The notes beneath the pieces are model-generated. The model ran no database searches and had not been told where the DNA came from. It saw only the letters and a program-made list of their open reading frames with translations. This document shows positions 16,742 through 50,832 of a stretch of 64,000 nucleotides of DNA, in pieces. The stretch spans positions 1 to 64,000 of the forward strand of contig NZ_LMSS01000004.1 in NCBI RefSeq assembly GCF_001429605.1. Direction: 5' to 3'. Source of the stretch: Phycicoccus sp. Soil802 (GTDB lineage Bacteria; Actinomycetota; Actinomycetes; Actinomycetales; Dermatophilaceae). How positions within the stretch are numbered: position 1 is the stretch's first letter; every line of letters starts with the position of its first letter. The translations under genes and the position numbers were made by a program.

Positions 16742-18121
16742 TCAGGCCGCGGGGGTCCCGGGCAGCGTCTGGTAGCCCCCGGCCGGGTGGCCGAGGTAGG
16801 GGAACGCGTCGAGGTAGGGCGCGTTCGTGTTCGACGTGCCGTCGGTGACCACGCTGGCTGCCCCGTCCGGGGTGAAGCTCGGGTCGACCAGCGGGATGGT
16901 CGCCCCGGCCACGGCCCGCAGCTCGATCGCCACGACGTCGTCGATCAACCGGCGCCCGTTCGGGAACCCGGCGGCGTCACCGGCGACGAGCCCGATCGGG
17001 TTGGGGTTCGCGGTCGGGGGCACCGCGACGTTGAGGCGCAGCAGGTCGGCCTGGGTGCTCCCGGTGTAGTTCTGGAAGCCCGGGACGACCCCCTTGGGGA
17101 TGCCGGTCAGCAGGATCGCGAGCAGGTCGGCCCGGTCCTTCGTGTAGGCGGCCAGGTTCGGGAAGACCCCGGGGTAGAGGACCGGCAGCAGCTTGGCGAG
17201 CTCCGGCCTGGCCACGTAGCGGGCGAAGGCGGAGTCGTCGTGGGGCTGCCGGGCGTTCCAGCGGTCCTTCATGGCCATCGGGGTGATGACCTCGTTGAAC
17301 AGCGGGTTCCCGAGCCGGGACACCTGGCTGAACGGACCCCGCCACGCATAGCGCTCCGAGATGTCGTCCCAGATCCGCGACTTCTGCCGGCTGGCCGTGG
17401 CCCACACGCCGATGACGGACCCGGCGTCCAGCGGGTCGGTCGGCTTGTTGCCCCTGCGGGTCAGGTCCGAGATCGGCACCTGGATGGCGATGCTGTGGAC
17501 GTTGAGCCCCTGGGTGCCGTTGACGCCGACTGCCGCCGCGGACGGGATCAGGTGGAGCATCTGGAACGGGCGGAGGGTGCCCAGGTCGAAGATGCTCCCG
17601 AGGTCCACGTGGAACCCCTCGGCCCGCTGCCCCGCGAACACCTTGCGTCCACCCTGGATCGAGTGGACCGCCTGGCCGGCCAGGGTGGCGTACTTCGGCG
17701 TGCTGCGCGGGCCGATGTTGACCGGCGGGCAGGACAGCCGGCTCGCGAGCAGTCGGGGGTAGTCGCCCCTGGCCACCCGGGTGACCGAGTAGGACTGCGG
17801 ACGGTTCCAGGCCGGATCGGAGATCGAGGTGATGGGCCCGGTGTTGTAGAGGAAGGTGGAGTCGTTGCGGACCTTGGTGCGGAACCGGAACTGGTAGGTC
17901 ACGTCGGCGCGCGCGTCGCCGCGGTTGCTCACGTGGATCTCGTAGAGGACGTCGTCACCGAACTCGTAGAAGTTCGGTCCGCCTTGGGGGTTCTGGAACG
18001 GGATGAAGTTGGCGATCAGCGTGACGGTGTCCGGCTTGTCGGGGCTGACGAACGCGTAGACGTCGGTGTTGTCCGCCACCGGGTCCTTGGAGACCTCCGG
18101 GGCTTCGCGGTGCGAGGACAT
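16742..18121 (-). CDS. DUF4331 protein
   Basis: 459 residues beginning MSSHREAPEVSKDPVADNTD, with VYAFVSPDKPDTVTLIANF and NFYEFGDDVLYEIHVSNRGD. These are the hallmarks of DUF4331, a family usually exported and of unknown function. This copy has no signal peptide of its own. It starts two bases after the stop of a small gene that does have a Tat-type signal (18124-18384), so the two are translationally coupled and may be exported together. The start ATG 18121 sits directly before the conserved SSHREAP motif. Confidence 0.88.
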   Translation of the reverse strand: MSSHREAPEVSKDPVADNTDVYAFVSPDKPDTVTLIANFIPFQNPQGGPNFYEFGDDVLYEIHVSNRGDARADVTYQFRFRTKVRNDSTFLYNTGPITSISDPAWNRPQSYSVTRVARGDYPRLLASRLSCPPVNIGPRSTPKYATLAGQAVHSIQGGRKVFAGQRAEGFHVDLGSIFDLGTLRPFQMLHLIPSAAAVGVNGTQGLNVHSIAIQVPISDLTRRGNKPTDPLDAGSVIGVWATASRQKSRIWDDISERYAWRGPFSQVSRLGNPLFNEVITPMAMKDRWNARQPHDDSAFARYVARPELAKLLPVLYPGVFPNLAAYTKDRADLLAILLTGIPKGVVPGFQNYTGSTQADLLRLNVAVPPTANPNPIGLVAGDAAGFPNGRRLIDDVVAIELRAVAGATIPLVDPSFTPDGAASVVTDGTSNTNAPYLDAFPYLGHPAGGYQTLPGTPAA

Positions 18122-18123
18122 GG

Positions 18124-18384
18124 CTACTTCCTCGCTGCTCGGGTCAGACGACGGACGAGGTCGGCGTCCTGCACGACGACCTCGTCCTCGCCGAACAGGA
18201 TGGCGACGCGGCCGGTGGTCACGTCGTCGATGTAGGCGACGAGGGGCTCGCCGTCCGGTGCGGAGTCATCCGGCCGCTGGCCGGAAGGGGCGGCCAGGGC
18301 CCCCGGTGCAGCCGCGAGGGCCGCGGCGGCGGCAGCGCTCGACCCGGCCGCGGCCAGGAAGACTCGCCGTGAGGTGTTGCTCAT
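18124..18384 (-). CDS. Small Tat-signal protein
   Basis: 86 residues. SRRVFLAAAGSSAAAAAAL is a twin-arginine type signal, cleaved near ALAAPSG. The remaining roughly 50 residues (LVAYIDDVTTGRVAILFGED, then VVVQDADLVRRLTRAARK) have no recognised domain. It is the first gene of a two-gene unit with the DUF4331 gene. A role as export partner or as a surface ligand of the DUF4331 protein is an inference from coupling. Confidence 0.8.
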   Translation of the reverse strand: MSNTSRRVFLAAAGSSAAAAAALAAAPGALAAPSGQRPDDSAPDGEPLVAYIDDVTTGRVAILFGEDEVVVQDADLVRRLTRAARK

Positions 18385-18511: not shown

Positions 18512-19492
18512 TCAGCTGGCGGCGCGGCCCAGCGCGAGGGCGAGGTCGTGGGCCGCGGTGGCCACGGAGTGCCCGAGGGTCACCGCACCCTGCCCGACCT
18601 CGAACTGCGCGCCTCCGCCGACGTGGACCCGCAGCACCGGGTCGGCGGCGCGCAGGGCAGCGACCGTCTCACGGGTGGACAGCACGTCGGTGGGGGTCGG
18701 GGTCCCGATCACCACGGCGGCCGGCCGCTGTTGCTGGACGACGCGGACCCAGTGCTGGGCGGGCAGGTCGGCCCCGAGGTAGAGGACGTCGACGCCGGCC
18801 CTTCGCAGCATCACGCTGAACGCCAGGATCCCGAGCTCGTGCTGGGCGCCGCGCGGCAGACCCACGGCCACCCGGGGTCCGCCGGCACTCGGGGTGACCG
18901 CGTCCAGCTCTATCGCCAGCCGTCGGTGCACGGTCGCACTCACCACGTGCTCGCCGGCGACGTCCACCCGGCCGGCCCGCCACTGTGCCCCGAGCATCTC
19001 CAGGGCGGGCATCAGCCAGACCTCGACGACCTCCTCCAGGGGGCCGGCCGCGAAGGCCGTCGTGATGGCCTCGTCGATCGCCGCCGGGTCGAGCTCGGCG
19101 GCTCCGCGGGCCAGGGCCGTGACGTCCCAGGCGCCGGACGCATCCCGGTCGGCGGCGTCGTCCGTCGCGGGCGCGTGCGCCGTCTCTCCGCTGTCGTCCC
19201 GCTCATCGGTGACGAGGTAGGCATCCCAGGGCGCGTTCTGCGGGTCGCCGTCCGAGGTGACGTCGGAGCGCAGGTGCTCGGCGGCCTGGCTCGGGGACCA
19301 GCCGGCCGCCACGAGAGCGCCCATCGCCCGCAGCAGCTGCAGGCCCTGCTCGTCGTAGAGCCGGTAGCCGCCCTCGGTGCGCACCGGGCGCACGAGTCCG
19401 TAGCGGCGTTCCCAGGCCCGGATCGTGGCGGACGGGACGCCGGTCAGGCGGGCGGCGTGCCCAATCGTGTACACCCCCGCAGGGTCCCACAT
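18512..19492 (-). CDS. litR: MerR-type B12-dependent light regulator (LitR/CarH)
   Basis: 326 residues. Residues 6-75 form a MerR winged helix (YTIGHAARLTGVPSATIRAW). A helical domain and a cobalamin-binding Rossmann domain follow. The features known from CarH/LitR are present: W171-x9-E181-H182, which packs against adenosylcobalamin, and QHELG with H218 as the probable cobalt ligand. In the family, AdoB12-loaded tetramer represses in the dark and light breaks it. ATG 19492 is preferred; ATG 19507 and GTG 19474 are alternatives, and no ribosome site is strong. It is divergent from an acyltransferase and next to fatty-acid modification genes, the usual LitR company. Confidence 0.88.
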   Translation of the reverse strand: MWDPAGVYTIGHAARLTGVPSATIRAWERRYGLVRPVRTEGGYRLYDEQGLQLLRAMGALVAAGWSPSQAAEHLRSDVTSDGDPQNAPWDAYLVTDERDDSGETAHAPATDDAADRDASGAWDVTALARGAAELDPAAIDEAITTAFAAGPLEEVVEVWLMPALEMLGAQWRAGRVDVAGEHVVSATVHRRLAIELDAVTPSAGGPRVAVGLPRGAQHELGILAFSVMLRRAGVDVLYLGADLPAQHWVRVVQQQRPAAVVIGTPTPTDVLSTRETVAALRAADPVLRVHVGGGAQFEVGQGAVTLGHSVATAAHDLALALGRAAS

Positions 19493-19563
19493 CGTTGCGC
19501 AAAGCATGGACAAGTTCGCAGGTGAGGAGCCCAACGGGAGGAGGCGGCTGACAGGATGACGGC
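19493..19563. promoter_or_regulatory. Divergent litR / acyltransferase promoter region
   Basis: Only 71 bases separate the two divergent starts. It contains TTGCGCAAAG followed one helical turn later by TGGACAAGTT (about 19495-19516), two related half-sites in direct orientation with 11-base spacing. CarH operators are built of 11-bp direct repeats (known), so this is a candidate operator; the match is loose. Confidence 0.4.
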
Positions 19564-20751
19564 ATGAGTCGGCACCTCCTGCCCGAGGTCGCGCGGGGCC
19601 GGGTCGTGGGGGTGGACGTGGCCCGTGCCCTGGCTCTCGTGGGCATGATGGCCACGCACATGCTCCCCGGACTCGTGGGCACCCACGTGCCGTGGGCACA
19701 GCAGGTGGCCGGGGGCCGCGCCTCGGCCCTGTTCGCGGTGCTGGCGGGGGTCAGCGTCGCCCTCGTCAGCGGCCGCACCCGGCCGGTGCGCGGACGAGCG
19801 AGGTATGCCGTGTCGACCAGGTTGGTGGTCCGCAGCCTGGTCATCGGTGCGCTGGGCCTGACGCTCGGCCTGGTGCCGACCGGTATCGCCGTGATCCTGG
19901 CCTACTACGCCGTCCTCTTCCTCCTGGGACTGCCCTTCCTGGGATTGCGGGCGCCCGCGCTGGCCCTCCTGGCCGGTGTCTGGGCGGTGGCCGGGCCGGT
20001 CCTCTCCCTGGTGCTGCGGCCGCACCTTCCCGGCCACGAGGTCGGCAGCCCGACGCCCGGGTCCCTGACCTCGCCCCTCCACCTGCTCAACGAGCTGCTG
20101 TTCGTCGGCTACTACCCGGCGGCGGTCTGGCTGGCCTACCTGCTGGCCGGCATGGCGATCGGGCGCGCCGACCTGCTCCGCCGGGGCGTCGACGTGGTGC
20201 TCCTGGTGGGCGGGGTCGGCGTGGCGGTGGCCGGCACGGTGCTCTCACGGGTGCTCCTGTCCCGCGACGACGCCTGGGCCGCCCTCGCTGCGACCTACCC
20301 GGACCAGGGGGTGGGGCAGGACCCGGACCTCTTGGCCGCCACCCTGACCCACGGTCTGCACGGCACGACGCCGACCGGCTCCTGGTGGTGGCTGGCCACG
20401 GTCGCGCCACACTCCGGGTCACCCCTCGACCTGGCCCAGACGATCGGCAGTGCGATGGCGGTGCTCGGGCTGTGCCTGCTGGCCACGCGAGTCCGGCCCC
20501 GGGTCTGGGCCGCGGCCTTCGGCGCCGGGGCGATGACCCTGAGCCTCTACACGCTGCACGTCCTGATGATGGGCGAGGGTTGGTGGCCCGACCTCGAGGC
20601 GCCGGCCAACTACCCCCACCAGGTGCTCATCGTGCTGGGGGTGGGTACCGGCTTCGCCCTAGCGCCGCTCAGGGGGCCCCTCGAGACGCTCGTCGCGCGG
20701 CTGTCCCGGTACGCGGCCGCCCCGTGGACGGACCCGCGCCGAGCACCGTGA
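19564..20751 (+). CDS. Multi-pass membrane acyltransferase-like protein
   Basis: 395 residues with about ten membrane helices. The start GVDVARALALVGMMATHM, with His in the first helix, and RASALFAVLAGVSVAL are typical of DUF1624/DUF418-type and heparan-glucosaminide acetyltransferase-like proteins, which move acyl groups across the membrane. The late helix with LYTLHVLM fits as well. The substrate is unknown. ATG 19564 has AGGA eight bases upstream. Being divergent from litR, it is a likely direct light-induced target and may lead the transcript into the oxidoreductase gene 95 bases downstream. Confidence 0.75.
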   Translation: MSRHLLPEVARGRVVGVDVARALALVGMMATHMLPGLVGTHVPWAQQVAGGRASALFAVLAGVSVALVSGRTRPVRGRARYAVSTRLVVRSLVIGALGLTLGLVPTGIAVILAYYAVLFLLGLPFLGLRAPALALLAGVWAVAGPVLSLVLRPHLPGHEVGSPTPGSLTSPLHLLNELLFVGYYPAAVWLAYLLAGMAIGRADLLRRGVDVVLLVGGVGVAVAGTVLSRVLLSRDDAWAALAATYPDQGVGQDPDLLAATLTHGLHGTTPTGSWWWLATVAPHSGSPLDLAQTIGSAMAVLGLCLLATRVRPRVWAAAFGAGAMTLSLYTLHVLMMGEGWWPDLEAPANYPHQVLIVLGVGTGFALAPLRGPLETLVARLSRYAAAPWTDPRRAP

Positions 20752-20846
20752 CCGCGGACCGCGCCGGACGGCGCCGGTGACCCCAATCCAGCAGGTCTGG
20801 CGTGCCGAACCACTGGCGAACCGTCACTCCGACCGGATGGATCCCC

Positions 20847-22253
20847 ATGTCTGCACCACGCCGCGCCGTCATCGGCAGCGGAGTCGCCGGGCTCACCGCC
20901 GCCCACGTGCTCAGCACCCGCGGTGCCGTCACCCTCTACGAGGCCGACTGCCGCCTCGGCGGCCACGCCGACACCCACGAGGTGACGGTGGACGGCCGGA
21001 CGATCGGCGTCGACACCGGCTTCATCGTGCACAACGACCGGACGTACCCCACCCTCGTCCGCCTCTTCCGTGAGCTCGGCGTGGAGACGCAGGAGTCGGA
21101 CATGAGCATGTCCGTCCGCGACGACGAGGCCGGCCTGGAGTATGCCGGTGCGCGTGCGGCCCGGGGACTCTTCCCGCGGGCGGCCAACCTGACCAACGGC
21201 AGGTACCTGCGGATGCTCACGGAGGTGAAGAAGTTCCACCGGGAGGCCAAGGCGGTCCTCGCCCGACAGGCCACCGACACCGACCGTGACGAGACCCTCG
21301 GCTCGTTCGCCGGGCGCTGCGGTTTCAGCCCCTACTTCACCCGCCATTTCCTCGAGCCGGTGGTCGCAGCAGTCTGGTCCTGCGACCCGTCCGTGTCGCT
21401 GCACTACCCGGCCCGCTACCTGTTCGAGTTCCTCGACCACCACGGCATGCTCACGGTCTTCGGCTCGCCCACCTGGCGCACCGTGACCGGCGGCTCCCAG
21501 CGCTACGTGGAGGCACTCGCGGCAGGGATTGCCGACATCAGGTTGTCGACTCCCGTGCGCTCGGTCGTCGAGACCGCCGACGGTGTCGTGGTGACCGACG
21601 TCGACGGCGTCGAGGATGTCTTCGACTCGGTCGTCATCGCCGCACACCCGCACCAGGCCTTGGCCATGCTCGCCGAGCCGACCCGGGCGCAGCACGACGT
21701 GCTGAGCGCGATCACCTACTCCAGCAACGTCGCCCAGCTGCACACCGACGAGTCGGTCTTGCCCGCGGCATCGGGCGCGCGGGCCTCGTGGAACTACTGG
21801 CGGCGGGCGGAGGGTGACGGCACCGGCGTGCTGGTCACCTACGACCTGACCCGGCTCCAGCGGCTCGACGTGACCGACCGTCGCTTCCTCGTCACCCTGA
21901 ACGGCGTGGACTGCGTGGACCAGGGCCTCGTCATCGACACGATGCGCTACGAGCACCCCCTCTACACCCCGGAATCCGTTGCAGCCCAACGACGACTGCC
22001 CGAGATCAACACCGCCCGCATCGCGTTCGCGGGCGCCTACCACGGGTGGGGCTTCCACGAGGACGGGGCGCGGTCCGGTGCGGTCGCCGCCGAGGCGCTC
22101 GGGGTGCCGTGGGTCGAGGACGAGCCCACTGCACCTGCCGGTCGCCACCGCGCCGACGTGGCCCTGAGCGCCCACGAGGACGTGTCGGTCGATGACACGA
22201 CGGGTCTCGTCGCCGCGGCCGAGGGCGACCTCGAGGAGGTGGGCGCCCGGTGA
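20847..22253 (+). CDS. FAD-dependent amine-oxidase-type oxidoreductase
   Basis: 468 residues. The N terminus RRAVIGSGVAGLTAAHVLS is a dinucleotide-binding fold, followed by VTLYEADCRLGGHADTHEV and DTGFIVHNDRTYPTL. The C-terminal part has IAFAGAYHGWGFHEDG. This is the NAD(P)/FAD oxidoreductase that repeatedly accompanies DUF1365 and cyclopropane-synthase genes. It is thought to desaturate or oxidise modified acyl chains. ATG 20847 opens directly into the FAD motif; an in-frame GTG at 20802 would add 15 residues. The stop overlaps the GTG of the next gene (GTGA). Confidence 0.88.
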   Translation: MSAPRRAVIGSGVAGLTAAHVLSTRGAVTLYEADCRLGGHADTHEVTVDGRTIGVDTGFIVHNDRTYPTLVRLFRELGVETQESDMSMSVRDDEAGLEYAGARAARGLFPRAANLTNGRYLRMLTEVKKFHREAKAVLARQATDTDRDETLGSFAGRCGFSPYFTRHFLEPVVAAVWSCDPSVSLHYPARYLFEFLDHHGMLTVFGSPTWRTVTGGSQRYVEALAAGIADIRLSTPVRSVVETADGVVVTDVDGVEDVFDSVVIAAHPHQALAMLAEPTRAQHDVLSAITYSSNVAQLHTDESVLPAASGARASWNYWRRAEGDGTGVLVTYDLTRLQRLDVTDRRFLVTLNGVDCVDQGLVIDTMRYEHPLYTPESVAAQRRLPEINTARIAFAGAYHGWGFHEDGARSGAVAAEALGVPWVEDEPTAPAGRHRADVALSAHEDVSVDDTTGLVAAAEGDLEEVGAR

Positions 22254-22981
22254 AGGCACCCGCCGCCACGCGCATCTACGCCACCTCGATCGTGCACGCC
22301 CGCACGACCCCGCTGCGCCACAGCTTCAGGCACCGCAGCCACACCTGGCTGGTGGACCTCGACGAGCTGCCCCGGCTGGGGCTGCTGGGTCCACTCGCGA
22401 GCTTCGAGTCCCGGGACCACCTCGGGTCGCCGGACCACACGCTGCGCGAGAACCTCGACACCTTCCTCGCCACCGAGGGGATCGACCTGGAGGGCGGCCG
22501 GATCCTCATGCTGGCCATGCCACGCGTGGCCGGGACCGTCTTCAACCCCATCAGCGTCTACTGGTGCCACACGCCGGACGGGCGGTTGGCCTGCAACGTG
22601 GTCGAGGTCCACAACACCTACGGCGACCGGCACGCCTACCTCGTCCACGCGGACGACAAGGGCCACGCCGAGGTCGACAAGGCCCTCTACGTCTCACCGT
22701 TCAACGATGTCTCCGGTCGCTACCGGCTGACCATCCCGACCCCGGGCGAGACCGTGCAGGTGCAGGTGGTCCTCGACCGCCCCGACCAGGCGCCCTTCGT
22801 GGCCGGCCTGCGCGGACGCGCCCTGCCCGTTCGCGCCACGACGGTGCTGCGCCTCGCCGTCACCCAGCCCCTCGAACCCCTGGCCGTCGCCGCGCGGATC
22901 CGCTGGCACGGCATCCGCCTGTGGTTGCGCCGCCTGCCGGTCCAGCCGCGCCCTTCCCACCACCAGGAGGCAGTCCAGTGA
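22250..22981 (+). CDS. DUF1365 protein
   Basis: 243 residues. Typical DUF1365 features: RIYATSIVHARTTPLRHSF at the start, FNPISVYWCH in the middle, YVSPFNDVSGRY and a C-terminal LRLAVTQPLEPL. The biochemical role is unknown, but the family is almost always linked to fatty-acid methyl-modification genes and LitR. GTG 22250 has GAGGAGG ten bases upstream and overlaps the preceding stop. The stop in turn overlaps the GTG of the methyltransferase, so the genes are translationally coupled. Confidence 0.9.
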   Translation: MKAPAATRIYATSIVHARTTPLRHSFRHRSHTWLVDLDELPRLGLLGPLASFESRDHLGSPDHTLRENLDTFLATEGIDLEGGRILMLAMPRVAGTVFNPISVYWCHTPDGRLACNVVEVHNTYGDRHAYLVHADDKGHAEVDKALYVSPFNDVSGRYRLTIPTPGETVQVQVVLDRPDQAPFVAGLRGRALPVRATTVLRLAVTQPLEPLAVAARIRWHGIRLWLRRLPVQPRPSHHQEAVQ

Positions 22982-24312
22982 CCACCGCCACCGCCGGCCT
23001 GTCCACGCGGCCCGCCATCGACGCCAGCCGCTGGCCCGACCTCACCGCACCTCGCGCCAAGGCGCGCCGGGCCGTCGAAGGCGCCGTCGCCCGCAAGATC
23101 TTCCTCTCCGTCGCACGACGGCTGCCCGTGCGCGTCCAGCTCGGGCGTGACGCGATCGTCGGGGGCGCCGCCACCGACCCCACCGCGCCCCTGATGGTCA
23201 TCGAGCGGCCCGAGAGCTTCTTCGCCGCGCTCGGCGCCGGTGGGCTGATCGGCTTCGGTGAGTCCTACATGACCGGCGACTGGAACGCCGACGACCTCGG
23301 CGGGCTCCTCGAGGTCTTTGCCGCCCAGATGGGGACGCTGATCCCGGAGCCCCTGCAGAAGCTCCGCGCCTTCTACGTCGCTCGGGCCCCGCACACCGAG
23401 AAGAACACGACGACCAACACCCGCACCAACATCGCGCGCCACTACGACCTGTCCAACGACATGTTCGCGACCTTCCTCGACGGCACCCTGAGCTACTCCT
23501 CGGCCCTCTTCGACGGGGCAGAGGACTCCGGCCGGGCCGTGGCCGGTGAGGTGGTGACGACCAGCGTGCCGACCACCGTCCCCACGTGGGACCAGCTGGC
23601 GGACGCGCAACGGCAGAAGATCGACCGGATGCTCGACTCCGCCGGCGTACGTGACGGCAGCCGCGTCCTCGAGATCGGCACCGGTTGGGGCGAGCTGGCC
23701 ATCCGCGCTGCGTCGCGCGGTGCCCGGGTGCTGTCGGTGACCCTGTCCAGCGAGCAGCAGGCCCTGGCCCGCGACCGCATCGCCCTCGCCGGCCACGCCG
23801 ACTCCGTGGACGTCGAGCTGCTCGACTACCGGCTGGTCGAGGGCGAGTTCGACGCGGTCGTCTCGGTCGAGATGATCGAGGCCGTCGGCCACGAGTTCTG
23901 GGGCGAGTACTTCCGCACGATCGACAGCGTCCTGGCCCCGGGCGGCAAGGTCGCCATCCAGGCGATCACCATGCCGCACGACCGCATGCAGGCCACGAAG
24001 TACACCTACACGTGGATCAACAAGTACATCTTCCCCGGTGGCTTCCTGCCCTCGACCGAGGCCATCATCGATGTCAGCGGCGAGGAGACCAGCCTCCACG
24101 TCAGCGAGCGGCTCTCGTTCGGGCAGCACTACGCCGAGACCCTTCGACTCTGGGACGAGCGCTTCCTCGCCTCCCTCGACCGGGTGCACGCGCTCGGGTT
24201 CGACGAGGTCTTCGACCGGATGTGGCACTTCTACCTCGAGTACTCACGAGCCGGTTTCCGCTCGGGCTACCTCGACGTCCAGCAGCTCGTGCTCGAGAGG
24301 AAGGCAGCCTGA
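22978..24312 (+). CDS. Cyclopropane-synthase-like methyltransferase 1
   Basis: 444 residues. The N-terminal region has FFAALGAGGLIGFGESYMTG, as in Cfa enzymes. The conserved ARHYDLSNDMFATFLDGTLSYS and the SAM-binding VLEIGTGWGELAIRAA follow. Cfa-type enzymes add a methylene or methyl group from SAM across an acyl double bond in membrane phospholipids. GTG 22978 is preceded by AGGAGG with seven bases spacing and lies inside the previous stop region. A second, more diverged copy follows immediately, so the two probably act on different substrates or steps. Confidence 0.88.
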   Translation: MTTATAGLSTRPAIDASRWPDLTAPRAKARRAVEGAVARKIFLSVARRLPVRVQLGRDAIVGGAATDPTAPLMVIERPESFFAALGAGGLIGFGESYMTGDWNADDLGGLLEVFAAQMGTLIPEPLQKLRAFYVARAPHTEKNTTTNTRTNIARHYDLSNDMFATFLDGTLSYSSALFDGAEDSGRAVAGEVVTTSVPTTVPTWDQLADAQRQKIDRMLDSAGVRDGSRVLEIGTGWGELAIRAASRGARVLSVTLSSEQQALARDRIALAGHADSVDVELLDYRLVEGEFDAVVSVEMIEAVGHEFWGEYFRTIDSVLAPGGKVAIQAITMPHDRMQATKYTYTWINKYIFPGGFLPSTEAIIDVSGEETSLHVSERLSFGQHYAETLRLWDERFLASLDRVHALGFDEVFDRMWHFYLEYSRAGFRSGYLDVQQLVLERKAA

Positions 24313-25625
24313 TGACCACCCTCGAGTGGGTCGAGTCCCCAACCGTGACAGGGCGATCCGGCGTCGCGCGCGAGATCGCGAAGGCGCTGGCCCCGTTCGT
24401 CGGCGGTGAGCTGCCGGTGCGACTCACGGCCTGGGACGGCAGCGAGGCCGGACCTGCTGACGCCCCCCACGTCGTCCTCCGATCGCCGCGCGCGCTGCGC
24501 CGGCTGCTGCGCCACCCGGGCGAGCTCGGGGCCGCGCAGGCCTACGTCACCGGTGAGCTCGACGTCGAGGGTGACCTCGACGAGGCGCTGACGCACGTCC
24601 GGGCGGTGGCCCACGAGCGCCAGCTCACCGGCCTACGTCCCACCCCTGCCGCCATCGCGGCGCTGCTCAAGGTCGCCCGCGGTGCGGGCGCCATCGGACT
24701 TCCCCTGCCCGCGCCGGCCAGCCAGGCCGCGCTGAGCGGACGGTTGCACAGCCTGGGTCGCGACCGTCAGGCGATCCACCACCACTACGACCTGTCCAAC
24801 GACTTCTACAGCCTGATCCTCGACCCCCACCTGGCCTACTCGTGCGGCTACTGGCGGTCCGAGGACGAGGGCTACACCGTCGAGGACGCCCAGCGCGACA
24901 AGCTCGAGCTCGTCGGCCACAAGCTCGGGCTGGGCTCGGGAGCGCGGCTGCTCGACGTGGGCTGTGGCTGGGGTTCGATGAGCCTGTATGCCGCGGAGCA
25001 CTTCGGCGCGCAGGTCGTCGGCGTGACCATCGCCGCGGAGCAGAAGCGCTTCATCGACGCCCGCATCGCCGAGCGAGGTCTGCAGGACCGCGTGGAGATC
25101 CGGCTGCAGGACTACCGCGACGTGCCCGACGGCGACTTCGACGCGGTCGTGTCGCTGGAGATGGGAGAGCACGTGGGCCAACGCAACTACCCGACCTACG
25201 CCAAGGTGCTGCACGACCGGGTGCGCCCGGGTGGCCGCGTCCTCGTGCAGCAGATGTCCCGTCGCGGCCGTCACCCCGGCGGTGGTCCGTTCATCGAGTC
25301 CTTCATCGCTCCCGACATGCACATGCGGCCGGTCGGGGCGACCGTCGACCTCATCGAGGCGTCGGGGCTCGAGGTGCGCGACGTGCACGCCCTGCGCGAG
25401 CACTACGTGCGCACCGTCGCGGCCTGGCACCGCACCTTCGAGGACAACTTCGACCAGGTCGTGGCCCTCGTCGGCGAGGAGGTCGCGCGCGTCTGGCGGC
25501 TCTACCTGGTCGGTGGCGCGATGGCCTTCCGTGACGGCCGGATGGGGGTCGACCAGATCCTGGCCGTCCGCCCCGACCGCGGGCCCGCGGACCTCGAGCC
25601 GGCGCGACCGGCGGACTGGTCCTGA
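24312..25625 (+). CDS. Cyclopropane-synthase-like methyltransferase 2
   Basis: 437 residues. HHHYDLSNDFYSLILDPHLAYSC and LLDVGCGWGSMSLYAAEHFG give the Cfa active-site and SAM-binding regions. SLEMGEHVGQRNYPTYAKVL and VQQMSRRGRHPGGG differ from the first copy and resemble the methyltransferases found next to DUF1295, implicated in branched or furan fatty-acid formation. ATG 24312 overlaps the preceding stop (TGATG), and its own stop overlaps the next start in the same way. Paired with the neighbouring reductase-like gene, it may methylate an acyl chain that is then reduced or rearranged. Confidence 0.87.
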   Translation: MTTLEWVESPTVTGRSGVAREIAKALAPFVGGELPVRLTAWDGSEAGPADAPHVVLRSPRALRRLLRHPGELGAAQAYVTGELDVEGDLDEALTHVRAVAHERQLTGLRPTPAAIAALLKVARGAGAIGLPLPAPASQAALSGRLHSLGRDRQAIHHHYDLSNDFYSLILDPHLAYSCGYWRSEDEGYTVEDAQRDKLELVGHKLGLGSGARLLDVGCGWGSMSLYAAEHFGAQVVGVTIAAEQKRFIDARIAERGLQDRVEIRLQDYRDVPDGDFDAVVSLEMGEHVGQRNYPTYAKVLHDRVRPGGRVLVQQMSRRGRHPGGGPFIESFIAPDMHMRPVGATVDLIEASGLEVRDVHALREHYVRTVAAWHRTFEDNFDQVVALVGEEVARVWRLYLVGGAMAFRDGRMGVDQILAVRPDRGPADLEPARPADWS

Positions 25626-26410
25626 TGTTCGACGGTTCGAACTTCCTTGCGGTCACTGGGTTCTCGCTCCTGGCCATCGTCCTGCTGATGGTCGCCACCG
25701 CCGTGGAGGGGCACCGCCAGGGCAGGGTCAGCGTCGTCGACACCACGTGGGGGCTCGGTTTCGTCGTCGTCGCAGCCGTGGCCGCCCTCGCGGGTGACGG
25801 CGCCGGCTGGCGACGCCTGGCACTGTTCGTCATCGTCGCGGTCTGGGGGCTGCGCCTCGCGTGGCACATGCACCAGCGCAACCGCGGCAAGGGCGAGGAC
25901 CCGCGCTACGCCGCCATGCTCGAGAAGGAGACCGGCAACCCGACCCTGGTCGCCATCCGGAAGGTGTACGGCATCCAGGGGCTCTCCGTGTGGTTCGTGT
26001 CGCTGCCGATCCAGGTCAGCGCCGCGGCGGGCGGGGGAGTGGTGGTGGTCGCTGTGGTGGGCCTGGCCCTGTGGCTGCTCGGCGTCTCCCTCGAGTCGCT
26101 GGGCGACAAGCAGCTCAAGGACTTCAAGGCCGACCCGGCCACCAAGGGCACCGTGATGGACCGTGGGCTGTGGTCCTGGACGCGGCACCCCAACTACTTC
26201 GGCGACTCCTGCGTCTGGTGGGGGACCTGGCTCGTGGCGGCGAGCGCCTGGCCGGGCGTCCTGACCATCCTCTCGCCCGTGGCGATGACCTACTTCCTGG
26301 TGTTCGCCACCGGGGCGAGGCTGCTCGAGAAGCACATGGCGGAGCGCCCCGGCTACGCCGAGTACCAGCAGCGGACGAGCTACTTCCTCCCGCGGCCACC
26401 CCGACGCTGA
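25625..26410 (+). CDS. DUF1295 membrane protein (steroid 5-alpha-reductase fold)
   Basis: 261 residues, about six membrane helices. GLWSWTRHPNYFGDSCVWWG and the C-terminal RPGYAEYQQRTSYFLP are the signature of DUF1295/isoprenylcysteine methyltransferase-like reductases. In the LitR-linked lipid loci this family sits with Cfa-like enzymes, probably as the reductase partner. ATG 25625 overlaps the previous stop codon. It is the last gene of a five-gene coupled run starting at 20847. Confidence 0.88.
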   Translation: MFDGSNFLAVTGFSLLAIVLLMVATAVEGHRQGRVSVVDTTWGLGFVVVAAVAALAGDGAGWRRLALFVIVAVWGLRLAWHMHQRNRGKGEDPRYAAMLEKETGNPTLVAIRKVYGIQGLSVWFVSLPIQVSAAAGGGVVVVAVVGLALWLLGVSLESLGDKQLKDFKADPATKGTVMDRGLWSWTRHPNYFGDSCVWWGTWLVAASAWPGVLTILSPVAMTYFLVFATGARLLEKHMAERPGYAEYQQRTSYFLPRPPRR

Positions 26411-26442: not shown

Positions 26443-26515
26443 TCGCTCGGACCCGGTACTGTCCTGCCTTGGCGAGCAGGGCGCCACGGACCGGGTGCGA
26501 GTGGAGGTGGAGACC

Positions 26516-27100
26516 GTGGACAGTGCTCTCATGGACGCCGCCGTCGCCCGGGCGAAGGCGGGCGACCGTCCTGCGTTCGGACAGCTCTGGCTCGACCTGT
26601 CGCCCCGAGTGGCCGCGTACCTCCGTTCGCACGGCGTGGCCGACGCCGAGGACGTCACGAGCGAGGTCTTCCTCGCGGTGTTCCGGCACATGGACCGGTT
26701 CTCCGGCGGGGGAGCAGCCTTCCGCGCGCTCGTCTTCACCGTCGCCCACCGCAGGCAGGTGGACTGGCACCGGCAGCGAACCCGCCGCGGGACCTGGCTG
26801 ACGCTCGATGACCTGGGGTCCGAACCAGCTTCCCCCTCGGCCGAGAGCGCGGCCCTCGCGGCCATCGCCGACGAGCAGGTGGTGGCGGCGCTGGGCACCC
26901 TCACCTCCGACCAGCGGTCCGTGCTGGCGCTCCGGGTGGTGGCCGAGCTCAGCCTCGAGGAGACGGCGGCCGTGCTCGGCAAGGACCTCGGCGCCGTGAA
27001 GTCGCTACAGCACCGGGCGCTTGCGCGGCTGCGGAGAAAACTCTCGCCGGACCCGTATCCCCGGGACGCCCTCGCGCGATTGAACGCCCGTCATGCCTGA
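26516..27100 (+). CDS. ECF-type RNA polymerase sigma factor
   Basis: 194 residues from GTG 26516. Region 2 is DRPAFGQLWLDLSPRVAAYL, then DAEDVTSEVFLAVFRHM; region 4 is LTSDQRSVLALRVVAELSLE, then LGKDLGAVKSLQHRALARLR. The GTG at 26516 has GGAGG/GGAG just upstream; in-frame GTGs at 26495, 26501 and 26507 are alternatives. The stop lies inside the next gene (ATGCCTGA, 8-base overlap), a common layout for a sigma factor and its membrane regulator. It follows the LitR lipid operon by about 100 bases with a direct repeat in between, so it may be part of the same response. Confidence 0.85.
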   Translation: MDSALMDAAVARAKAGDRPAFGQLWLDLSPRVAAYLRSHGVADAEDVTSEVFLAVFRHMDRFSGGGAAFRALVFTVAHRRQVDWHRQRTRRGTWLTLDDLGSEPASPSAESAALAAIADEQVVAALGTLTSDQRSVLALRVVAELSLEETAAVLGKDLGAVKSLQHRALARLRRKLSPDPYPRDALARLNARHA

Positions 27101-50508: not shown

Positions 50509-50832
50509 GGGAGTCACTCCGTCAGTGGTGGTGTGGCGCGATGTGCACCGGGTGCACGGCGATTGTCTCACAGGCTCGAGGTGCTGCCGTCCGCGACAGC
50601 CGAAATCGGGATCTCTGCGGCCAAACCCCAACCAAAGGGTCCACGCACGCCTCGAAAAGGTGCGACGGCTTGTTCAAGGTTTGGCAAAGAAGGGGCAAGG
50701 AAAGTCCCAAGGCTACAGGTTGACCGGCATCATAGTCCTGTCCACGCACCGCACCCCTGGCGGCTAGGGACAACTGATGGTCTGAAGTAACCGAACGGAC
50801 GAGTCGGGCATCAGACAGAAGGAGCATCTGCC
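50509..50832. other. Divergent intergenic region, bL37 / small peptide
   Basis: 324 bases without a convincing frame. It contains an A-rich patch (about 50655-50710, with GGCAAAGAAGGGGCAAGGAA) that may hold a promoter or folded leader for the downstream peptide and HD-domain genes. The ribosome site AAGGAG precedes ATG 50833 by eight bases. No riboswitch could be assigned. Confidence 0.5.

Follow-up and report, generated by a model that had tools for sequence, protein, structure and literature searches.

The stretch of DNA analysed here, called the window throughout, comprises 64,000 nucleotides (C4:1-64000) of the actinobacterial genome G000, which has 4.29 Mb in 9 contigs and Pedococcus bigeumensis, a species of the same genus within the family Intrasporangiaceae, as its nearest named relative (a further genome, G140, also belongs to this genus). 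Region 18512..26410 contains a putative light-responsive regulator gene and, divergent from it, a set of genes for lipid modification; both the genes and the coordinates that a sequence-only reading had given for this region were right. Domains of the window proteins were assigned with Pfam profiles and judged against the Pfam cut-offs. The regulator gene litR (18512..19492, minus strand) encodes a LitR/CarH-type MerR protein with an adenosyl-B12 (AdoB12) light-sensor domain. Its ATG at 19492 is separated by 71 bp from the ATG at 19564 of the first divergent gene (19564..20751, plus strand), which codes for an HGSNAT_cat (PF07786) membrane protein and possible acyltransferase with a score of 30.1 bits versus a cut-off of 22. 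On the same strand follow genes for a flavin adenine dinucleotide (FAD) oxidoreductase of the amine-oxidase type (Amino_oxidase; 20802..22253, with ATG 20847 as the likelier start), a DUF1365 protein (22250..22981), two Cfa-like methyltransferases of the CMAS family, here Cfa A (22978..24312) and Cfa B (24312..25625), and a DUF1295 or steroid-reductase-like membrane protein (25625..26410). Neighbours in this run overlap by 4, 4, 1 and 1 bp, and these overlaps together with the Pfam matches bear out the coupled run of five genes that had been proposed.

All three domains of the regulator score above their cut-offs (MerR_1 61.5, B12-binding_2 36.2 and B12-binding 36.0 bits), and when the window protein is aligned with 14 relatives, W171, E181, H182 and H218, the latter within QHELG, are invariant. 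The signature of light-responsive B12 domains consists of GxxW, EH, GxxH and GxxxP (PMC11796333, accessible in part) and is completely present in the window regulator as GAQW, EH, GAQH and GADLP. Domains and complete light signature thus confirm the earlier assignment to MerR-B12 regulators with CarH/LitR features. The protein is closer to CarH (E 2.5e-25) than to CtMerR (E 1.2e-9) but, judged by a score of 120.5 against a cut-off of 400 for the NCBIfam CarH equivalog NF052513, it is a relative and not a member of that equivalog. Class II LitR was rejected as an assignment, since one B12 domain is kept in that class (accessible part of PMC9758184) and both are present here. As regards cofactor supply, G000 has one PduO-type adenosyltransferase match, on C4, and no adenosyltransferase of the CobA/CobO type was found in this genome. 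The full SignatureFinder motif, the CarH-type operator-like repeats described below and this cobalamin adenosyltransferase gene together support the suggested response to light and B12.

His132 of CarH, which serves as upper ligand in the light state, is replaced by arginine. No histidine occurs at this position in any of 58 aligned rows (window and repeat genomes included), so that the arginine looks like a family trait rather than a defect of the window gene. Because the light-state histidine is missing and cobamides may be scavenged, LitR could also be a corrinoid sensor in which AdoB12 determines repression and light plays an incidental part. This would agree with the arginine itself, with the CarH variant H132A, in which light-driven tetramer loss is mostly blocked and most protein stays tetrameric (accessible part of PMC10442372), and with Pedococcus isolate 5OH_020, which has no cobamide synthesis genes and requires cobamide for growth according to the available sections of PMC10281107. 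CtMerR, however, has arginine at the same position and nevertheless passes from tetramer to monomer in light (PMC11796333, as far as accessible). Moreover, the remaining light signature of the window regulator is intact and its candidate targets include photolyase, a gene related to light damage. We therefore regard a pure corrinoid sensor as unlikely and prefer a photoreceptor.

The DNA upstream of litR, compared in the window and 28 relatives, shows TTNGACA repeated at a spacing of 11 bp, and from these stretches the operator consensus CTTNGACAAANNTTNGACA, an 11-bp direct repeat, was drawn by eye. Its distribution was followed in a family survey of 186 genomes, with LitR matches counted at E 1e-15, and in 40 fetched loci, 39 of them picked among the 119 DUF1365-containing genomes of the family and one (G123) added for its LitR. 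At up to three mismatches the consensus occurs anywhere in the locus in 26 of the 28 fetched loci with litR and in none of the 12 without it, a count that is partly circular because the consensus was drawn from the same loci, the whole-genome counts being less so. The two misses are G178 and G141, where the site is present with more mismatches, and in G123 the site stands by photolyase and not by litR. In whole genomes 101 sites with at most one mismatch were counted versus 1 for a reversed control pattern. Such sites are carried by 67 of the 124 genomes with a LitR match versus 8 of the 62 others (p 3.5e-8, which is only a guide because the genomes are related), and in two of these eight (G183 and G184) the site does have a LitR-like gene next to it. 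In CarH operators the 11-bp unit nAnnTnnACAn is repeated in tandem (PMC8156234, accessible in part); in a comparison by hand the family repeats have the TnnACA core and the 11-bp phase in common with this rule, but not the first A.

The genus set consists of ten relatives of G000 with fetched loci of 17-18 kb; nine genus genomes have litR at the locus, and the two without it (G142 and G146) have no operator site in the locus. In eight of these nine the litR-proximal site is found at nearly the same place. Six genus relatives have a second site 54-58 bp away, whereas the window, G139 and G141 have a single one. In the window the candidate operator (19494..19512, plus strand; two 11-bp repeats, GTTGCGCAAAGCATGGACA) lies 1 bp from the litR start codon and within 19493-19563, the region that had been suggested for footprinting.

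In the family survey LitR was matched in 124 genomes, DUF1365 in 119, photolyase in 154 and an HGSNAT-type protein in 54 (E 1e-10). Among the matches listed, 81 genomes have a strong LitR match (E 4.3e-36 or better). DUF1365 is present in 62 of them and lies within 10 kb of LitR in 49 of these 62, because of which the association is not considered a matter of chance. With all 121 LitR genomes among the matches listed, 89 have DUF1365, 69 of them at a distance of at most 10 kb. The usual form in the loci fetched from outside the genus is litR divergent from a FAD-DUF1365-Cfa run, often with photolyase next to it. The 80 named loci include DUF1365 in 30 cases, photolyase in 24, HGSNAT in 3 and a site with at most two mismatches in 55, and DUF1365 was not seen in the examined DNA of the Chloroflexota loci.

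Concerning the lipid product, UfaM, UfaD (a FAD protein) and UfaO (a DUF1365 protein) lead to a methylated furan fatty acid, of which the second methylase FufM makes the dimethyl form (accessible part of PMC7380195). With one FAD protein, one DUF1365 protein and two Cfa-like proteins the window contains, by family, a counterpart of each of UfaM, UfaD and UfaO. By analogy with that system (PMC7380195, same part), the FAD protein is a candidate UfaD-type desaturase, the DUF1365 protein a candidate furan-forming oxygenase of the UfaO type and Cfa A a UfaM-type candidate, while Cfa B may perform a second methylation (the role of FufM) or act on a second substrate. That many three-gene relatives have only Cfa A in the run suggests that this is the core methylase. 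Compared with solved cyclopropane fatty acid (CFA) synthases, Cfa A has serine for cysteine and glutamine for histidine, Cfa B keeps the cysteine and has glutamine for histidine, and glutamate and tyrosine are kept in both. In E. coli CFA numbering these replacements concern C139 and H266; the latter is the active-site histidine of CFA synthases. The glutamine at this place in both proteins speaks against a cyclopropane synthase.

The set might still yield methyl-branched or cyclopropane fatty acids and no furans, as both Cfa-like proteins retain the CFA glutamate and tyrosine, and Cfa B, only 30% identical to Cfa A, shares 41% with the Cfa of another gene pair. In this pair (L288:849-3583, G000:C1) a FAD_binding_4 gene overlaps a Cfa-like gene by 4 bp, the arrangement described for the FAD-binding partner gene and the Cfa gene of 10-methylstearate synthesis (PMC5660069), and thus it probably represents bfaAB. 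A FAD_binding_4-type partner is present there but absent from the window run, which in this respect does not fit BfaAB. Together with the glutamine in place of the histidine of the compared synthases and the match of the DUF1365 and amine-oxidase-type FAD proteins to the UfaO and UfaD families, this makes a branched or cyclopropane product unlikely. The sequence-only reading had left methyl-branched, cyclopropane and furan lipids side by side; the furan lipid now appears favoured, and the other two lose ground through the glutamine and the bfaAB-like pair elsewhere.

A gene for an extracytoplasmic function (ECF) sigma factor (26495..27100, plus strand) follows 84 bp 3' of the run and possibly belongs to the same transcript. 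It could be the main controller of the run in the manner of SigK, with LitR regulating only itself and the HGSNAT gene. In mycobacteria a FAD-DUF1365-Cfa-DUF1295 run presumably adjoins a sigma gene, and we assume that this counterpart is controlled by SigK in a locus of the order Rv0449c-Rv0446c-sigK. The ECF gene has the same place in G139, G140 and G141, and the 95 bp between the HGSNAT stop codon and the likely FAD start offer room for a promoter. Against this stand the NCBIfam SigK score of 61.8 versus a cut-off of 226, the distribution of the ECF gene, which among the ten genus relatives occurs at this position in those three only and was not found in five of the nine genus loci with litR and the run, and the loci of G139, G145 and G147, in which litR and the FAD gene are immediate divergent neighbours and the operator sites lie in the interval. 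On the score and the missing gene SigK-type control by this ECF factor was rejected, and we hold that it has a small chance of being the main controller.

Control by LitR probably extends beyond the locus. The best site in G000, on C6 and with 1 mismatch, precedes by about 107 bp a gene for a secreted fasciclin-domain protein, and a site with 2 mismatches on C7 lies about 88 bp upstream of a photolyase gene, the sole one found in this genome with PF03441. That the system is without photolyase, as had been stated earlier, holds for the window locus, and the ten loci fetched from the genus yielded none either, but the unlinked gene on C7 does have a candidate LitR operator. Since the best three sites include those of photolyase and fasciclin, LitR probably controls both of these unlinked genes together with the furan-lipid genes. 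In Mycobacterium kansasii, fasciclin genes and the phrB-tspO-mmpL locus, where tspO adjoins photolyase, are induced in light (PMC9861118, accessible in part).

Taken together, we suggest, with a probability of roughly 0.6, that the regulator is an AdoB12-dependent photoreceptor-repressor of a furan-lipid operon and also of the photolyase and fasciclin genes. In the dark and with AdoB12 bound it would occupy the 11-bp direct repeats at 19494-19512 as a tetramer and block the divergent promoter or promoters; litR and the HGSNAT-ufaD-ufaO-ufaM-cfa-DUF1295 genes would therefore be low. Blue to green light would cleave the Co-C bond, the tetramer would dissociate and the genes would be switched on. 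Because His132 is arginine here, the signal is proposed to be passed without the bis-His ligation of CarH, in the way of CtMerR. As a Pedococcus relative has no cobamide synthesis, shortage of B12 should also derepress the set. On 18:1-type phospholipid chains, methylation by Cfa A with S-adenosylmethionine, desaturation by the FAD protein and DUF1365-dependent insertion of O2 would give a methylated furan fatty acid that could scavenge singlet oxygen, and Cfa B may add a second methyl group.

Several observations weigh against this proposal. The window copy of the operator is weak, with two units and 4 of 15 fixed bases differing from the family consensus (shuffle p 0.023), and the second copy of the six relatives is missing. 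A promoter and terminator scan found neither a sigma-70-like promoter nor a terminator, of which the lack of a promoter is the unfavourable part. The likeness to the Ufa proteins is one of family matches. In the remaining 13 of the 62 genomes with a strong LitR match and DUF1365 the two are separated by more than 10 kb or lie on different contigs. At up to three mismatches G000 has 8 matches versus 11 of the control, and since this total does not exceed the control only its best three sites (at most two mismatches) carry weight; eleven genus genomes together have 89 matches versus 58, and the 9 and 10 matches of G142 and G146, which lack LitR at the locus, are generally not fewer than those of the others. 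Among ten photolyase genes of the genus the site is clear in three (G000, G139, G140), partial in one (G141, p 0.007) and absent in six (G138, G142, G143, G144, G145, G147), and it is confined to one clade; no photolyase was found in G146.

These counts, with no excess in G000 and a modest one in the genus, also suit the view that the sites of photolyase and fasciclin arose by chance and that the regulon does not reach beyond the local locus. Such a restriction seems rather improbable in view of the recurrence of the sites. The fasciclin site is found again in G140, G141 and G144 and, in another genus, upstream of fasciclin relatives (G073, G074), fasciclin-like genes stand behind sites also in G034, G036 and G156 (Pfam-checked in G034 only), and the photolyase site is also present in G139 and G140. 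The third of the best sites (window 50671-50689, minus strand, 2 mismatches) was set aside as probably due to chance or unrelated. It is located upstream of a ribosomal-like open reading frame of 24 codons, which presumably corresponds to bL37, near SigR-RsrA-like genes (named by eye), and is conserved in G140 and G141.

How LitR may have come to this operon can be considered in relatives. The acyltransferase, which had been described as an addition to the usual gene set, is indeed present as an HGSNAT_cat gene in part of the genus: it lies between litR and the FAD gene in six of the nine genus genomes that have litR at this place and is also found in G142 without litR, while in the remaining three (G139, G145, G147) litR stands directly beside the FAD gene. 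A tree of 67 FAD proteins (62 of them different), calculated by a quick method without bootstrap and rooted at midpoint, splits with maximal support (Shimodaira-Hasegawa-like approximate likelihood ratio test, SH-aLRT, 100) into a lineage of 19 rows with all 16 five-gene operons and a lineage of 48 three-gene operons. The five-gene operons come from the genus, a Rhodococcus plasmid and the genomes G084, G086, G088, G002 and G033. LitR is encoded nearby in 9 of the 16 five-gene loci and in 45 of the 51 other loci, is thus linked to two separate operon lineages, and its linkage needs 8 changes on the tree. Outside the genus six of eight loci of the first lineage are not linked to LitR, and in the other two, G091 and G093, a distant LitR (32-34%) is encoded downstream. 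With the FAD proteins of the litR-less G084 and G086 that of the window shares 70-71% identity, versus 46-54% with members of the LitR-linked three-gene lineage. A plasmid search with DUF1365 gave 94 records, all below 60% identity; a Rhodococcus erythropolis plasmid has FAD, DUF1365, Cfa and DUF1295 genes in order with a collinear Cfa B-type match (tblastn), and no LitR is listed within 14.7 kb. Because this operon lineage is mostly not linked to LitR outside the genus, LitR control looks recruited, and we read the pattern as a takeover of a second operon lineage by LitR in this genus. Repeated loss of LitR may also account for it.

Among characterised systems, CarH of Thermus thermophilus (PDB 5c8d, 3whp) shares the MerR helix-turn-helix and B12 domains, the Wx9EH motif and the lower axial histidine, and its operator of 11-bp direct repeats resembles the candidate one described here. 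It differs in having His132 instead of arginine, three operator repeats instead of two, and carotenoid genes as targets where lipid, repair and surface genes are proposed here. CtMerR (PDB 8jbs, 8jbt; PMC11796333, accessible in part) has the full light signature and arginine at the position of His132, but is farther in sequence from the window regulator than CarH. The clusters of class II LitR in Pseudomonas, in the accessible account of PMC9758184, combine LitR with photolyase, a FAD oxidoreductase and UfaM and are induced by light; that LitR has one B12 domain and works with LOV (light, oxygen or voltage) proteins, whereas here both domains are present and photolyase is unlinked. A similar gene set is that of the RpoE-ChrR singlet-oxygen regulon of Rhodobacter sphaeroides with UfaM, UfaD, UfaO, photolyase and fasciclin in one regulon (PMC7074977, PMC7380195, both in part), the former source naming cfaS (UfaM), phrA, RSP1090/1091 and the fasciclin gene RSP1409 under RpoE. 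In that regulon singlet oxygen is read by an ECF sigma factor, and here a B12 photoreceptor is proposed as regulator. Fasciclin proteins also occur in the SigK regulon of mycobacteria, again under ECF sigma control: SigK, itself autoregulated from the Rv0449c promoter, controls the fasciclins mpt70 and mpt83, and its signal is called unknown in the accessible part of PMC7509140.

The window thus contains a genuine LitR locus whose anatomy is mostly known; the candidate operator, the targets elsewhere in the genome and the apparent recruitment raise its interest. The members of the regulon are already known; what appears new is their proposed control by a LitR of the B12 type that has a candidate operator, and their occurrence as a joint set in this family. 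Among the papers listed by the literature searches, with subscription papers covered only in part, none linked LitR, furan lipids and fasciclins in actinobacteria. As a wider and rather doubtful proposal, a B12 photoreceptor without bis-His ligation may at least two times in this family have taken over a photo-oxidative programme (furan lipid, photolyase, fasciclin) that is run elsewhere by ECF sigma factors; in a cobamide-scavenging host the synthesis of membrane furans would then answer light and community B12 jointly, and bacterial fasciclins would belong to photo-oxidation defence. If this were true, a direct photoreceptor and a stress sigma factor would be interchangeable controllers of one protection module, and there would be a testable reason for furan lipids, photolyase and fasciclin proteins travelling together. 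It would help in finding the role of bacterial fasciclins, and a B12 photoreceptor from a Gram-positive soil genus with a short defined operator and a lipid read-out would be useful for optogenetics.

Some neighbouring genes and further sites are added here. On the minus strand at 16742-18384, 3' of litR and in the same orientation, lie genes for a DUF4331 protein and an 86-aa protein with a twin-arginine translocation signal, which are possibly co-transcribed with litR; among the ten genus relatives DUF4331 adjoins litR in G139, G140 and G141 only. The plus-strand segment 26495-27857 contains, after the ECF gene, a gene for a protein without Pfam match that has one likely membrane span and a tail rich in His, Asp and Glu. 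Elsewhere in the family the genes behind sites include GT4 (family 4) glycosyltransferases, TspO/DUF2177, pyridoxamine-oxidase-like, Rce1-like and small secreted proteins. In six loci of three genera (L155, L156, L158, L160, L176, L192) sites are found at the start of genes for GT4-domain proteins of about 640 aa (by Pfam in L155 only), so far unstudied candidates for light regulation. In four loci (L161, L169, L178, L179) the site precedes the gene for a small secreted protein, about 104 aa long (126-127 aa by the starts in L161 and L169), the L179 copy of which gave no Pfam match, and in L170 and L173 the site is placed between divergent TspO-like and DUF2177 genes, recognised by Pfam in the former and by eye in the latter.

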